61,903 nt of DNA, from NCBI GenBank assembly GCA_028692885.1, contig JAQUWM010000009.1, forward strand, positions 1-61,903, read 5' to 3'. This stretch comes from Acetobacterium sp. Its GTDB lineage: Bacteria; Bacillota; Clostridia; Eubacteriales; Eubacteriaceae. Below the pieces are notes generated by a model. The model was not told the origin of the DNA, did not search any database, and saw nothing but the letters and a program-made list of their open reading frames with translations. Positions 1,356-6,276 of the stretch are shown here, in pieces. Positions within the stretch are counted from its first letter, which is position 1, and each line of letters opens with the position of its first letter. The position numbers were made by a program, and so were the translations under genes.

Positions 1356-1985
1356 ATGCAAAATGTAACCATCGTGGATCATCCACTTGTCATGCACAAA
1401 TTAACCCACCTTCGCAAGATGGAAACCCCTTCCCGGGAGTTTAGAGAATTGGTGAAGGAACTGTCCAGCCTGATGGCCTGGGAGGTTACCAAACATTTCC
1501 CCCTTAAAGAAATTGAAATTGAAACCCCCATCTGCAAAACGATCCAAAAAGTTTTGGCCGAAAAAGACGTCGTTATTGTTCCGATCCTACGGGCCGGCTT
1601 GGGCATGGTTGAGGGCTTCACCAATATCATCCCTAAGGCTAAAATTGGTCACATCGGCTTATATCGAGATCCCGAAACCCTTCAGGCGGTGGAATATTAC
1701 AAAAAACTGCCTTCAGATATTGCTGAAAGAGAGGCGATTATTGTCGATCCGATGCTGGCTACCGGGGTTTCTGTGATCCATACCATTCGCCTATTAAAGG
1801 AAGCTAATTGCCCCAATATTAAGGTCGTTCATATCCTGGCTTGTCCGGAAGGCATTAAAGCCGTCACCACCGCTTATCCCGAGATCCCCATTTTTTGTGC
1901 TGCCATTGATGATCACTTAAACGACCATGCTTACATTGTACCTGGTTTAGGCGATGCCGGCGACCGCCTTTTTGGTACAAAATAA
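1356..1985 (+). CDS. upp: uracil phosphoribosyltransferase
   Basis: The 209-residue enzyme converts uracil and PRPP to UMP in pyrimidine salvage. The full family length is present, including the VPILRAGLGMVEG segment near residue 75, the PRPP-binding DPMLATGVS loop near residues 131-139 and the C-terminal PGLGDAGDRLFGT signature. The ATG follows AAAGGAG. It is apparently monocistronic: a MITE-like element begins within ten bases of its stop codon, so the native 3' end may have been altered by that insertion. Confidence 0.97.
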   Translation: MQNVTIVDHPLVMHKLTHLRKMETPSREFRELVKELSSLMAWEVTKHFPLKEIEIETPICKTIQKVLAEKDVVIVPILRAGLGMVEGFTNIIPKAKIGHIGLYRDPETLQAVEYYKKLPSDIAEREAIIVDPMLATGVSVIHTIRLLKEANCPNIKVVHILACPEGIKAVTTAYPEIPIFCAAIDDHLNDHAYIVPGLGDAGDRLFGTK

Positions 1986-1991
1986 CTCCTA

Positions 1992-2112
1992 TATTAAATC
2001 GAATTAAAAAATTTTGTAACTCGAACTGGCAATTGCGCAGTGCGCAGGCGAGGGTCTGAGCCCTTGGTCATCACGATCGCCCCCGACGTTAACTATTTAA
2101 TTCAACGTATAT
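1992..2112. repeat. MITE-like intergenic element, copy A (121 bp)
   Basis: This copy begins just after upp. Its right end reads TTTAATTCAACGTATA and its left end is an imperfect inverted counterpart. The body shares the blocks AATTTTGT, GAACTGGCAATTG and GCAGTGCGC with copies at 12382-12502 and, on the other strand, 39282-39382. It holds no reading frame of significance. Confidence 0.75.
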
Positions 2113-2213
2113 AATTGACATCTTAAAAAATATTTTCAAAATGTGTGTTAACTAAAATAATTCGGGTAGATAGTTACTGTAGCTTTTCTCCTCAAAAGCA
2201 TATTTTTAGAAGT

Positions 2214-2253
2214 GGGACACCCTCACCGGGGTGTTCCGCTTCGCTTTTTGCTT
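2214..2253 (+). terminator. possible upp terminator
   Basis: GGGACACC (2214-2221) and GGTGTTCC (2229-2236) form a stem, followed after a GC-containing spacer by a TTTTTG run. This could be the displaced upp terminator downstream of the inserted element. The T run is not adjacent to the stem, so the call is tentative. Confidence 0.35.
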
Positions 2254-2271
2254 AACGGACCCTACCTCTGC

Positions 2272-2340
2272 TAGATATTGAATAAAAGAATTTTGCAAAT
2301 TGAACTGGCCATTATGCAATGTGCTTATATTCAATTTCTA
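2272..2340. repeat. MITE-like element, degenerate copy C (about 69 bp)
   Basis: This stretch carries the left half of the element (AAAGAATTTTGCAAATTGAA, then CTGGCCATTATGCAATGTGC) joined to a degraded right end (TATTCAATTTCTA), consistent with loss of the centre. It lies upstream of the tupA promoter. Confidence 0.55.
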
Positions 2341-2442
2341 CTGATGCTCCCCAGCGTTTCACTAAATTTCTGAGTAATCCGCCATTTAGTGATGAGTTAA
2401 CTGAAATCTAAAGAAGTTCGGGTTGTAAAGCATTCAGCCCTC

Positions 2443-2471
2443 TTGACATAAACAATAATATTTGCTAGAAT
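2443..2471 (+). promoter_or_regulatory. tupA operon promoter
   Basis: TTGACA (2443-2448) and TAGAAT (2466-2471) are spaced by exactly 17 bases. The predicted start of transcription near 2478 leaves a leader of about 240 bases before tupA. Confidence 0.75.
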
Positions 2472-2477
2472 AAGTGC

Positions 2478-2719
2478 AATTGAATAGTGTTTTCTTTAAT
2501 GAAAACAAACAATCCAAATTGTTAAGCCTAAGGTTTACTATGGTTTTTCAGTCGATAGAGTATAGTTAGAAATGACTGTGCTTTCCAATGTGTAAAGGAT
2601 GGTGGAGTTCTTCGAATTTTCTGACTGTTTTTGAGCAGTCATTTTATTTTTTTGGATTACCCTCACCATTGTGTCATTAAAGAGACTTCTGTTTGATAAT
2701 ATTTTTTAGGAGAACGAAA
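2478..2719 (+). promoter_or_regulatory. structured 5' leader of tupABC, candidate riboswitch/attenuator
   Basis: The leader contains CAGTC at 2549-2553, TGACTG at 2573-2578 and again at 2622-2627, and CAGTCA at 2636-2641. The first TGACTG can pair with the upstream CAGTC or the downstream CAGTCA. The second TGACTG with the downstream CAGTCA forms the terminator hairpin. Such mutually exclusive pairings are typical of transcription attenuators. No substantial coding frame is seen. I could not match it to the Moco/Tuco RNA consensus from memory, so the ligand is unknown; a tungsten/molybdenum-linked signal is a reasonable guess from the gene controlled. Confidence 0.5.
2622..2654 (+). terminator. 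leader terminator upstream of tupA
   Basis: TGACTG and CAGTCA enclose an 8-base loop and are followed by a run of eleven T in thirteen bases, all before the tupA ribosome site. Termination here would prevent expression of the transport operon. Confidence 0.65.
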
Positions 2720-3577
2720 ATGAAAAAGAAATTGTCAGCATTGGTCATTGTTATGTTTGTCTGCACGATTGGCCTCAGTGCCATTGGTTGCACCCCGGCA
2801 AAGAAAGATTTAGAGCCCGGTTCCAATGGGGAAATCATCCTTGCCACCACCACCAGCACCCAGGATAGCGGTTTGTTGGAAGTGATCCTGCCCGATTTTG
2901 AAGCCCAGACCGGGATCGCTGTAAAAGTTGTTGCCGTGGGAACCGGTAAAGCGATTGAAATGGGAAAAAACGGTGAAGCCGATGTCATGCTGGTTCATGC
3001 CCGCTCCCAGGAAGACCAGTTCATCGCTGATGGTTACGGGGTTGAACGATTTGATGTCATGTACAACGACTTTGTGGTCCTGGGACCAAAAGAAGATCCA
3101 GCCAAGGTAAAAACAACCGCTGTTGCCGATGCTGCCAAAGCCTTTACAGCCATCGCTGCTGTTCCGTCAACCTTTGTTTCCCGGGATGATAAATCCGGTA
3201 CGCATACCAAAGAACTGGCGATCTGGAAAGCTGCCAACATTACCCCCGCTGGTGACTGGTACATTAAAACTGGTACCGGGATGGGTGAAACCCTGACGGT
3301 TGCCAACGAAAAACTGGGTTATACCCTGGCTGACCGGGCAACCTATGCCAATATGAAAGATACCATGACCAATTTGGAAGTCGTCTGCGAAGGCGATGAG
3401 CTTCTTAATAATCCTTATGGAGTTATTGCGGTATCACCAACGATCAATGACAAAATTAATGCCGAAGGCGCTCAAGCTTTTGTCGATTGGATCATCTCTC
3501 CTGAAACTCAGAAACTGATTGGTTCATACGAAGTTAATGGCGATCCACTCTTTATTCCTAATGCCTCACAAAAATAA
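2720..3577 (+). CDS. tupA: tungstate ABC transporter, substrate-binding lipoprotein
   Basis: The 285-residue protein has a lipoprotein signal peptide with the lipidated Cys at residue 24 (LSAIGC). The mature part starts with the TupA-type oxyanion-binding ATTTSTQDSGLL segment. SRDDKSGTHTKE near residue 155 is also typical of TupA/WtpA-like proteins. It would capture tungstate (possibly molybdate) outside the membrane and hand it to TupB. The start follows AGGAGAACGAAA. It is the first gene of tupABC and lies behind a leader terminator. TupA usually selects tungstate strongly over molybdate, but specificity is not readable here. Confidence 0.9.
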   Translation: MKKKLSALVIVMFVCTIGLSAIGCTPAKKDLEPGSNGEIILATTTSTQDSGLLEVILPDFEAQTGIAVKVVAVGTGKAIEMGKNGEADVMLVHARSQEDQFIADGYGVERFDVMYNDFVVLGPKEDPAKVKTTAVADAAKAFTAIAAVPSTFVSRDDKSGTHTKELAIWKAANITPAGDWYIKTGTGMGETLTVANEKLGYTLADRATYANMKDTMTNLEVVCEGDELLNNPYGVIAVSPTINDKINAEGAQAFVDWIISPETQKLIGSYEVNGDPLFIPNASQK

Positions 3578-3637
3578 ACACTAAACCGGGATCCTGGGAG
3601 AATTGCTTTCTTCCAGGATCTCATTATGGAGAAATCA

Positions 3638-4345
3638 ATGGATTACATACTCAATGGTTTTGTTGAGGCCTTTCGCCTCATTTTTTCTTTTGATCCTGAG
3701 ATCATACAGATCGTTTTATTATCGCTTTTTGTATCTTTTTCATCGACCCTTTATGGCACCGTAATTGGCGTTCCGCTTGGGATTCTTCTGGGCATCAACG
3801 ATTTTCGGGGGAAGCAGGTGGTTTCCCGTTTTCTGTATACCTTTATGTCATTTCCACCGGTTATCATCGGTTTGTTTACCGCCCTCTTTCTAGCCCGTTC
3901 CGGACCTTTTGGTCAGTTCCAACTGATGTATACCGCAACTGCCATGATCATTGCTCAAACCCTTCTGGTGACTCCGGTTATTACGGGGATCGTCTTTAAT
4001 CATGCCAATACCAGTGGCTATCAGGTGGTTCAAACCGGCAAAACCTTGGGCGCTCAGGGCTGGAATATTTTGATCCTGCTGATTCTGGAATTAAAAGGCG
4101 TCATTATGATCGCCCTGGTCACTGGTTTTGGCCGGGCTATTTCCGAAGTTGGTGCCGTCATGATTGTCGGTGGTAATATCCGCGGTTTCACCCGGGTGAT
4201 GACCACCTTTATCGCGATGAACAATAACATGGGACAATACAGTATCTCCATCGCCATGGGACTCATCCTGATGACCATATCATTTGCTACCAATTCTATT
4301 TTATACCATTTTATCATAGGGGATCAGAATGAATATCGAGACTAG
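3638..4345 (+). CDS. tupB: tungstate ABC transporter, permease
   Basis: The 235-residue integral membrane protein has about five to six hydrophobic segments and the cytoplasmic coupling-loop pattern (KTLGAQGWNILILLILELKG, residues 137-156) that docks on the ATPase. ATG at 3638 is preferred over an in-frame ATG at 3626 because the TGGAGA ribosome site lies between them. The gene follows tupA after 60 bases and overlaps tupC by 17 bases, so translational coupling is likely. Confidence 0.9.
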   Translation: MDYILNGFVEAFRLIFSFDPEIIQIVLLSLFVSFSSTLYGTVIGVPLGILLGINDFRGKQVVSRFLYTFMSFPPVIIGLFTALFLARSGPFGQFQLMYTATAMIIAQTLLVTPVITGIVFNHANTSGYQVVQTGKTLGAQGWNILILLILELKGVIMIALVTGFGRAISEVGAVMIVGGNIRGFTRVMTTFIAMNNNMGQYSISIAMGLILMTISFATNSILYHFIIGDQNEYRD

Positions 4346-5045
4346 CAGTATTATAAAAACCTACAAAGAAAAAACTGTGCTCCATCTGGAAGGCAAATAC
4401 CAAGATCTTTTTTTTGAGTCCGGAAAAATTCATGGGATTATCGGCCCCAACGGTTCCGGCAAAACAACCCTGATGAAAATTATGGCCGGCCTGGTCACCC
4501 CAACTGCCGGGGATGTACTTTATAACGGTCAGCCCCTCGGTCAGGAGCTTTTTTCGCAAATGACCTATTCTACCCATACCCCGACGCTTTTTTCCCGATC
4601 GATTTATGAAAATATTGCCTACCCCCTAAAAATTCGCAAATGGGAGAAAGACAAAATCGATCAGACCGTCTCGCAACTGCTCGACGAGTTCGAAATAGCT
4701 GCTATTAAAAACCAGAGTGCCCGGCATCTTTCTGGTGGCGAATCCCAGAAAACAGCGCTGGCTCGAGCCTTATCCTTTTCGCCCCAGGTGCTTTTTTTAG
4801 ATGAGCCAACGGCGAATATCGATCCCAAAAGCATCCAGGTTATTGAAGCCGCTCTTAAAAAGCGAAATGTCGAAGACGGCTTGACAATTATCATCATCAC
4901 CCATAATCTCAGTCAGGCTTTCCGAATCTGCAACCACCTGACTTTTCTGGATCAGGGATCCTGCCTGTTTTCAGACACGCCGGAAAAGATCATGGTATCC
5001 GACCATCCAACCATCGATGAATTTATCTCATTCAATCGATTTTAG
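4329..5045 (+). CDS. tupC: tungstate ABC transporter, ATP-binding protein
   Basis: The 238-residue ATPase has Walker A GPNGSGKTT near residue 38, the signature LSGGESQKTALARAL near residue 133, Walker B VLFLDEPT and the switch histidine in ITHNL. It energises tungstate import with TupB. It lacks the long C-terminal TOBE region found in molybdate ModC proteins, in keeping with the TupC type. Its start lies inside tupB with GGGGATCAG as ribosome site. Confidence 0.9.
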   Translation: MNIETSSIIKTYKEKTVLHLEGKYQDLFFESGKIHGIIGPNGSGKTTLMKIMAGLVTPTAGDVLYNGQPLGQELFSQMTYSTHTPTLFSRSIYENIAYPLKIRKWEKDKIDQTVSQLLDEFEIAAIKNQSARHLSGGESQKTALARALSFSPQVLFLDEPTANIDPKSIQVIEAALKKRNVEDGLTIIIITHNLSQAFRICNHLTFLDQGSCLFSDTPEKIMVSDHPTIDEFISFNRF

Positions 5046-5208
5046 GGTTTTTTTCTCATAACTAGACTCATGCAACCTTAATTTTTTTACCCTAACCTTC
5101 TTTTTTATGGGTTGCTCCGAAATTTTGATTGCAAAAACAGGGTTTTTATAGTTATAATAATAACTTAGTCCAGACTTTATAAAGGGTCATTATATTGGGA
5201 GGAAAACC

Positions 5209-6276
5209 ATGAGATATGTGCCAACATTTTGCCTCCGTGAAGGAATGATGTTAGGAAACAATCTTTGGGGTGAACGGGGTGAGTTGATTCTTGCCAAAGA
5301 TACTGTTCTCACTGATGATTACATCGAACGAATAAAAAAATTGAATTATAATGGCATATATGTTGAAGATGATCTGACCAAAGATATCCAAATCATCAAT
5401 ATCATAAACGATCGGGTCCGGGCTGAAACCGTCAAGTGTATCAAGGATGTTTTTATTACCACTGAGAATAAAGGTTCTTTAAAAAAGAATACCTTTAATG
5501 ATATGCAAAAACAGATCGAGAACATCGTTGACGAAATTCTTCAAAATAGCAGTATGGTGATTAATATGGTCGATCTCAAGGTTTTTGATGACTATACCTA
5601 TTTTCATTCCGTCAATGTGGCAGTCCTTTCCATTGTTCTGGGTACAGCTCTGGGTCTACGCCGGGAACAATTGTGTGATCTGGGTATCGGTGCCATTCTT
5701 CACGATATCGGGAAGGTTTTTGTCAAAAAAGATATTCTCTGTAAAAAAGGTGATCTTTCTGACGATGAATCCTGTGAAATGCAAAATCACTCGACACTGG
5801 GTTACGATTACATTAAAAAAGTATCCAACATCAGTATGTCAGCCCGGATCGGAATTTTGGACCACCACGAAAAATTCAGCGGTGGTGGTTATCCCGGCAA
5901 CTTAAAAGAAGAAAAAATTTCGCTATTTGGACGCATCATCGCCATTGCTGATGTTTATGATGCGATGACTTCCGACCGACCTTACCGCAAAGCCATTATC
6001 CCTTCAGAAGTTATTGAGTATATCATGGGTGCTTCCCACACTGTATTCGATCCCGATCTGGTGAATATCTTTATCCGCAAGATCGCCCCCTATCCGATTG
6101 GTACCTGTGTTGAGCTGAGTAATCGGTTAACCGGAATTATCATTGAGAACTATGAAAGCTTCTCGATGCGTCCCCGGGTTCGAATTTTTAAAAAGGACGG
6201 CGAAGATGTTACCCCTTTTGAACTGAATCTCAGTGACCGGGCATTTCTGAATATTACCATTACCAGTATCTTATAA
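5209..6276 (+). CDS. HD-GYP domain protein, probable c-di-GMP phosphodiesterase
   Basis: The 355-residue protein has an N-terminal region of about 110 residues common in stand-alone HD-GYP proteins. The HD-GYP domain follows: LHDIGK near residue 165, HHEKFSGGGYP near residue 220, and the IADVYDAMTSDRPYR helix near residue 245. All expected metal ligands appear present, so c-di-GMP hydrolysis is likely. There is no receiver or membrane segment. It is flanked by its own ribosome site (GGGAGG) and a 20-bp hairpin terminator, so it is a single-gene unit between two ABC importer loci. Confidence 0.88.
   Translation: MRYVPTFCLREGMMLGNNLWGERGELILAKDTVLTDDYIERIKKLNYNGIYVEDDLTKDIQIINIINDRVRAETVKCIKDVFITTENKGSLKKNTFNDMQKQIENIVDEILQNSSMVINMVDLKVFDDYTYFHSVNVAVLSIVLGTALGLRREQLCDLGIGAILHDIGKVFVKKDILCKKGDLSDDESCEMQNHSTLGYDYIKKVSNISMSARIGILDHHEKFSGGGYPGNLKEEKISLFGRIIAIADVYDAMTSDRPYRKAIIPSEVIEYIMGASHTVFDPDLVNIFIRKIAPYPIGTCVELSNRLTGIIIENYESFSMRPRVRIFKKDGEDVTPFELNLSDRAFLNITITSIL

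Follow-up and report, generated by a model that had tools for sequence, protein, structure and literature searches.

A P3-less Moco-family riboswitch precedes the tungstate import operon tupABC in Acetobacterium

The closest described relatives of the RNA analyzed here are the Moco/Tuco riboswitches of Rfam family RF01055. Regulski et al. (2008; PMC2408646) reported that 58 of 176 Moco RNAs lack the P3 stem and that tungsten-cofactor genes are found in 17 of 19 organisms with such RNAs, and they proposed the tungsten cofactor as the ligand of the P3-less RNAs. In the E. coli moaA element treated in the same paper, ligand represses expression, and the RNA has both a P3 stem and an expression platform at the ribosome-binding site. 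Closer to our organism, a passage in PMC13390469, citing Putumbaka et al. (2025), mentions tungsten-dependent riboswitches of Eubacterium limosum transporters, and PMC5651825 refers to Moco-RNA motifs with mapped start sites in E. limosum. In its classification of RNA-regulated genes, PMC3766115 has a "Molybdenum & tungsten transporters" category, so the control of tungstate transporters by RF01055 probably has been catalogued already. Papers in which tupA and riboswitches both occur include PMC2408646 and PMC2996986. Our literature search found no paper joining a tungstate transporter with a Moco riboswitch, and it did not find the phrase "tungsten cofactor riboswitch."

We analyzed a 61,903-nucleotide contig of Acetobacterium sp. 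(referred to as the window). The first-pass annotation of this DNA had proposed that the leader of tupA contains a riboswitch or attenuator that controls tungstate import in response to tungstate, molybdate, or their cofactors, and it had suggested a covariance-model search. The search supported the proposal and named the class. Positions 2500-2618 (+), upstream of tupABC, matched the RF01055 aptamer at 52.4 bits, where the curated threshold is 36 (E value of 1.1e-9 for the whole window on both strands), and this was the sole Rfam match over threshold in all 61,903 bases. The alignment covers the whole model (positions 1-135 of 135) apart from the P3 columns, which are deleted. This leader is a genuine, conserved P3-less Moco-family riboswitch, and it adds a member to a known class. 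A minus-strand match to SQ2397 (18.4 bits against a threshold of 100) was attributed to chance. The features of the locus are as follows.

2443-2471, forward strand: sigma-70-type promoter, TTGACA-17-TAGAAT, with a TG extension before the -10 element (11 of 12 consensus matches)
2500-2618, forward strand: Moco/Tuco riboswitch aptamer of P3-less architecture (RF01055)
2509-2603, forward strand: P1, 2512-2515 with 2597-2600 plus 2509-2510 with 2602-2603 (helix in the covariation test)
2518-2552, forward strand: P2, 2518-2528 with 2542-2552, internal bulge at 2529-2531 and 2540-2541 (RF01055 alignment, covariation)
2553-2557, forward strand: joiner CGATA, from P2 to P4 (RF01055 alignment; 5 nt in 17 of 17 aligned tupA leaders)
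2558-2583, forward strand: P4, 2558-2568 with 2573-2583 (11 pairs), GAAA tetraloop at 2569-2572 (covariation)
2562-2628, forward strand: candidate antiterminator B, 11 pairs between 2562-2572 (5' strand and tetraloop of P4) and 2618-2628 (prefix folding)
2622-2652, forward strand: intrinsic terminator, stem 2622-2629 with 2634-2641 (8 pairs), 4-nt loop, then a T-rich tract (terminator scan, covariation)
2676-2697, forward strand: another conserved hairpin, downstream of the terminator and upstream of the ribosome-binding site (covariation)
2708-2712, forward strand: Shine-Dalgarno sequence AGGAG of tupA (sequence; conserved in the leader alignment)
2720-3577, forward strand: tupA, tungstate-binding protein (NF041772, E value of 4.5e-73; 3lr1, 5my5)
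3638-4345, forward strand: tupB, permease (NF041773 TupB, E value of 1.1e-43; ABC_perm1 over cut-off)
4329-5045, forward strand: tupC, ATP-binding subunit (ABC-transporter ATPase models; place behind tupB)

TupA scored 245.9 bits against NF041772, under the curated cut-off of 400, and matched the solved tungstate-binding proteins 3lr1 (E value of 7.1e-74) and 5my5 (4.7e-63). TupB scored 149.7 bits against NF041773, under the curated cut-off of 320. The third gene was named tupC from its position behind tupB, with which it overlaps; among the 25 ATPase-model matches listed, none was over its curated cut-off. Genes for molybdenum or tungsten uptake, or for cofactor synthesis or use, are expected behind an RF01055 aptamer, and the genes found downstream of this one are tupABC. 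Tungsten-metabolism genes of the genome include tupABC and an AOR-family gene (PF01314 and PF02730). A MoaB/MogA-type molybdenum-cofactor gene (134-637, +; TIGR00177 over cut-off) lies about 2 kb upstream of tupA, and the Rfam scan of the window revealed no RF01055 element beside it. Between upp and the tupA promoter, a strong 15-pair terminator-like hairpin followed by GCTTTTT was noted at 2209-2242 (+).

Further inspection of the aptamer revealed the elements of the family fold. The internal bulge of P2 (2529-2531/2540-2541) is the tetraloop receptor of the RF01055 family, with CCTAAGG/CTATGG, and the GNRA tetraloop that would dock into it is present on P4. The 3' strand of P2 takes in CAGT at 2549-2552, the helix has U-U mismatches (2522-2523 with 2547-2548), and the 3' strand of P4 holds the first TGACTG (2573). 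The P3 stem is absent from the window because only five bases (2553-2557) join P2 to P4, and it is likewise missing in 17 of 17 aligned tupA leaders. In P5, cmscan marked one nonstandard pair, a change also seen in relatives. The folding stability of the aptamer was moderately unusual (z score of -1.82; 9 of 200 shuffles were equally stable). The P1/P2/P4 core, the GAAA loop, and the P2 receptor are common to this leader and the E. coli moaA element. Unlike the latter, the tupABC leader has no P3, carries a terminator in place of a ribosome-binding-site platform, and precedes a transporter operon. It resembles the P3-less Tuco variants of Regulski et al. in lacking P3, in belonging to an organism with tungsten genes, and in being one of several genomic copies (seven in this genome), but the tupA leaders of Acetobacterium and Eubacterium differ from those variants in having GAG/CTT at the base of P4 and an altered P5. 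As described in the passage mentioned above, the E. limosum system also involves a tungsten-responsive RNA on uptake operons within the same bacterial family; the passage concerns iron transporters, and the RNA probably is of the same family as the one described here.

The first-pass annotation had made its proposal depend on conservation and covariation in related tupA leaders, and both were present, in the aptamer (17 leaders) and in the terminator (10 leaders). Across the 17 aptamers, 94.8% of cells were paired, and changes on both sides were seen in 11 of 26 pairs (1 in P1, 4 in P2, and 6 in P4). By helix, these amount to 4 of 9 counted pairs in P2 and 6 of 11 in P4, whereas P1, although 97.1% of its cells were paired, was invariant in 5 of 6 pairs and hence is little informative alone. 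The covariation score of the aptamer was 0.345 against a shuffled mean of 0.176, and 0 of 500 shuffles scored as high; slid versions of the pairing scored at most 0.126. The terminator stem behaved similarly in the 10 leaders that align there: 98.3% of cells were paired, 3 of 6 tested pairs had changes on both sides, and the score of 0.396 (0.218 shuffled) was reached by 0 of 500 shuffles. Kinship alone can produce such statistics, but a kinship artifact is unlikely in view of the slid controls and the independent RF01055 match.

Promoter, aptamer, and terminator follow one another in the leader. The consensus promoter proposed earlier was confirmed at 2443-2471; its two ends lie 277 and 249 nt upstream of the tupA ATG (2720), and transcription probably starts near 2478. 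It ranked best among 15 promoter-like sites in 1800-6000, a region for which shuffles averaged 9.4 such sites. For the 17 aptamer-bearing tupA leaders, we scanned 110 nt before P1 and reported one site per leader; in 16 of these the best site had 8 to 11 of 12 matches and a TG extension and ended 14 to 40 nt before P1, and in the remaining leader (L025) the reported site lay 74 nt before P1 and lacked the TG. The intrinsic terminator that had been placed inside the leader likewise stood, at 2622-2652, with its stem kept by compensatory changes. The sequence after the stem (2622-2641) is TTTTATTTTTTT, and nine aligned relatives share with the window a T-rich tract behind the stem. The scan found 10 terminator-like sites in 1800-6000, compared with 4.0 expected. 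In one relative (G007), it found a weak hairpin (-4.4 kcal/mol), and in G001 and three Eubacterium leaders, it picked only the hairpin proximal to the ribosome-binding site.

We propose that this leader, as a Tuco-type (P3-less) riboswitch of the Moco family, controls tupABC by attenuating transcription, a reading to which we assign a probability of about 0.8. Transcription would begin near 2478, and, when the tungsten cofactor is plentiful, it would bind the aptamer formed by P1, P2, and P4, in which the GAAA loop on P4 would dock into the P2 receptor. The bound aptamer would keep the strands of P2 and P4 off the linker, so that the terminator at 2622-2652 could form, tupABC would be off, and tungstate import would be shut down. 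When the cofactor is scarce, aptamer strands could instead pair with the terminator's 5' arm, and polymerase would continue into tupABC. That ligand represses is suggested by analogy with the E. coli element and by the terminator platform.

The structure of the ON state is tentative in this scheme. In the energy model, the leader from 2478 to 2654 formed the terminator with a probability of 0.92 though P1 reached only 0.12, so that the model gave no clear switch. The repeats on which the first-pass annotation had built its alternative pairings are all where it had placed them (CAGTC at 2549, TGACTG at 2573 and 2622, and CAGTCA at 2636). CAGTC falls in the 3' strand of P2 and at its edge; pairing of this repeat with TGACTG (2549-2554 with 2622-2627) would take that strand. 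This pairing (candidate antiterminator A) is possible and had 90.0% of cells paired, but its covariation score was reached by 238 of 500 shuffles, and we set it aside as unsupported. Candidate antiterminator B arises from the repetition of the 3' strand of P4 in the terminator arm. When the leader was folded as a short prefix from just before P1, the 5' arm of the terminator paired with the aptamer with a mean probability of 0.88; with the leader from 2478 included, antiterminator B itself reached only 0.07 to 0.14 at lengths of 2627 to 2636. It showed no covariation, the complementarity of the linker was equaled by 187 of 2,000 linker shuffles, and it too was set aside, as an unproven candidate. 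In comparable prefixes of the 17 leaders, ending at the 5' arm, the mean probability of arm-aptamer pairing was >0.8 in 10 and <0.5 in the other 7, and the pairing used different aptamer strands in different species. When aptamers and terminator arms were exchanged among 14 leaders, own arms paired at -9.27 kcal/mol and swapped arms at -8.38 kcal/mol, with the own arm best in 3 of 14, which was not convincing as evidence for an antiterminator.

The same riboswitch might instead respond to the molybdenum cofactor, to the cofactor of either metal, or to metal-free molybdopterin, rather than specifically to the tungsten cofactor. PMC2408646 assigns P3-less RNAs to the tungsten cofactor by correlation, and it describes deletion of P3 from the E. 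coli RNA as abolishing regulation, not as switching specificity. Both metals may enter the cell, as the window's genome (3.03 Mb, 202 contigs, 87% complete) encodes tupA and two modA genes over cut-off. The distribution of the RNA speaks against such a ligand. Among 40 genomes of the family, tupA was found in 21 and RF01055 in 24, in a survey that scored part of the first-look candidates per genome and may miss weak aptamers. Of the 21 tupA genes, 17 had RF01055 within 400 nt, at 80 to 110 nt upstream; of 37 modA genes over cut-off, those near contig ends included, 0 had it within 5 kb. Since this genome has both importers and the family places the RNA near tupA and not near modA, the RNA is tied to tungsten import, not molybdenum import, in this group. 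It was present at all 14 complete tupA genes of Acetobacterium; among named records, the nearest relatives of the tupA in the window are those of Acetobacterium species and one Firmicutes genome. No RF01055 element was close to the other four family tupA genes: one (G025) belongs to the same genus as three that have it, two (G027 and G028) belong to another genus, and one (G008) is cut at a contig end. Beyond the family, we used a model (R1) built from 30 family aptamers on the best 80 of 556 GTDB tupA loci. Within 600 nt upstream, 39 had a match, of which 9 belong to the family that supplied the aptamers for R1 and one is truncated by the end of its contig, and 41 had no R1-type aptamer.

The genes behind other copies also bear on the ligand. 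We read 79 of 80 family RF01055 copies with the available downstream DNA. In a Pfam scan, representative copies preceded tupABC, FecCD-type ABC transporters, and Peripla_BP_2 binding proteins, and others preceded a formate/nitrite transporter, NADH-dehydrogenase-like subunits, and a MobB gene; representatives from Eubacterium preceded ferredoxin, AOR, and ThiS-type genes. A P3 pattern, which was one specific sequence pattern and thus narrower than a general test for P3, was matched by 5 of 79 copies, and these are the five before one gene cluster encoding MoeA, MobB, and MOSC proteins (one copy tested). The confinement of the P3 copies to this Moco-type cluster agrees with the Moco/Tuco split described in PMC2408646 and argues against a molybdenum-related ligand for the P3-less leader, a reading that we regard as unlikely. 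FecCD-type ABC transporter and Peripla_BP_2 genes were seen behind RF01055 copies at L009:4774-6632, L154:3407-4399, and L143:400-1419, and PMC13390469 places iron transporters of E. limosum under tungsten-dependent riboswitches.

Control might also be exerted at translation or mRNA stability through the hairpin at 2676-2697, with the terminator a mere leaky roadblock. This hairpin is conserved and covarying, with changes on both sides in 5 of 7 pairs and a score that 0 of 500 shuffles reached; it is the kind of hairpin found alone by the terminator scan in the four leaders mentioned above (G001 and the three from Eubacterium), and both kinds of expression platform occur in the riboswitch family according to PMC2408646. 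However, it stops 10 nt short of the Shine-Dalgarno sequence, which is left uncovered, and in the window G2682 stands opposite G2691, which breaks one pair of the hairpin. The compensatory changes in the terminator stem, together with the T-rich tract retained in the window and its nine relatives, also speak for attenuation, and we consider control through this hairpin decidedly improbable.

The exchange at the base of P4 raised the question of a specialized aptamer. GAG/CTT replaces GGG in all 17 tupA-leader aptamers of Acetobacterium and Eubacterium, and P5 is altered as well; among 44 other copies in the genus, none had GAG, 42 had GGG opposite CCT or TCT, and 2 were poorly placed. The tupA-leader aptamers could have been tuned, perhaps to select more strictly for tungsten or to bind with another affinity, but this is quite doubtful. 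The same exchange occurs in 8 of 16 non-tupA copies of Eubacterium, and tupA leaders outside the family lack it by eye, which weakened the case for a tupA-specific subclass. More probably, a single compensated pair has been inherited in an orthologous leader. The gene context, and thirteen short start-to-stop runs (4 to 60 codons) beginning in 2478-2700, might suggest that the leader senses the tungstate or molybdate ion directly or attenuates through a leader peptide. This reading was already disfavored and is most improbable, given that the leader matches a cofactor-sensing class along the full length of the model and that the frame of the short run from 2499 is, by eye, not kept in relatives.

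A separate arrangement was observed outside the window. Twenty family RF01055 copies have no clear downstream gene in the sense direction, and in 16 of these an AOR-family gene (PF01314) faces the aptamer on the other strand; at L012:5747-7546 (-) and like places, an aldehyde:ferredoxin oxidoreductase-family gene stands end to end with an aptamer copy. Both AOR domains are found in the window's genome, and Eubacterium instead has an AOR gene downstream in the sense direction. In 19 of the 20 copies, which could be aligned past the aptamer, the tail consists of a terminator (T1), a conserved segment that includes a hairpin, and a second terminator (T2). The segment contains the word TTTGTAACC in 18 of 19 rows and TTTGCAACC in the remaining row, and the loop of T2 is close to ACTAACCAA. 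Among 16 tail sequences, 0 of 500 shuffles reached the covariation score, and 6 of 10 pairs of T2 had changes on both sides. We searched 67 genomes of the order with a model of the tail (R2). In the genus, 17 of 19 genomes together held 23 strong copies (E values no worse than 1.4e-8); outside it, there were two weak matches only (7e-4 and 2e-3). By coordinate comparison, an RF01055 hit precedes 20 of the 23 strong copies, and 18 of the 23 face an AOR gene. Examples are L012:5055-5372 (G000:C1:23054-23371) and G000:C102:45057-45382 (L007 from 1501), and tails with no RF01055 hit alongside are at G007:C137:37206-37367, G010:C1:3092278-3092405, and G017:C1:2648127-2648260. Rfam gave no match over threshold at the tail loci besides RF01055, and a literature search gave no paper on such a tail, nor did the titles listed name it. 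The antisense riboswitch is a known idea, and PMC9943018 counts 24 MOCO cases. The tail loci possibly are simple antisense riboswitches; because T2 lies before the AOR gene, the tail also is a possible candidate for a small RNA controlled by the tungsten cofactor.

Finding this riboswitch before tupABC allows a regulatory signal to be assigned to the uptake of tungstate by acetogens. The occurrence of the RNA at tupA and its absence at modA provide a clean natural contrast for the proposal of 2008, itself correlative as set out in PMC2408646, that P3-less RNAs sense the tungsten cofactor, and an acetogen importing both metals is a good host in which to test it. A small RNA controlled by the tungsten cofactor and facing an AOR gene would, if true, extend what this riboswitch class does.
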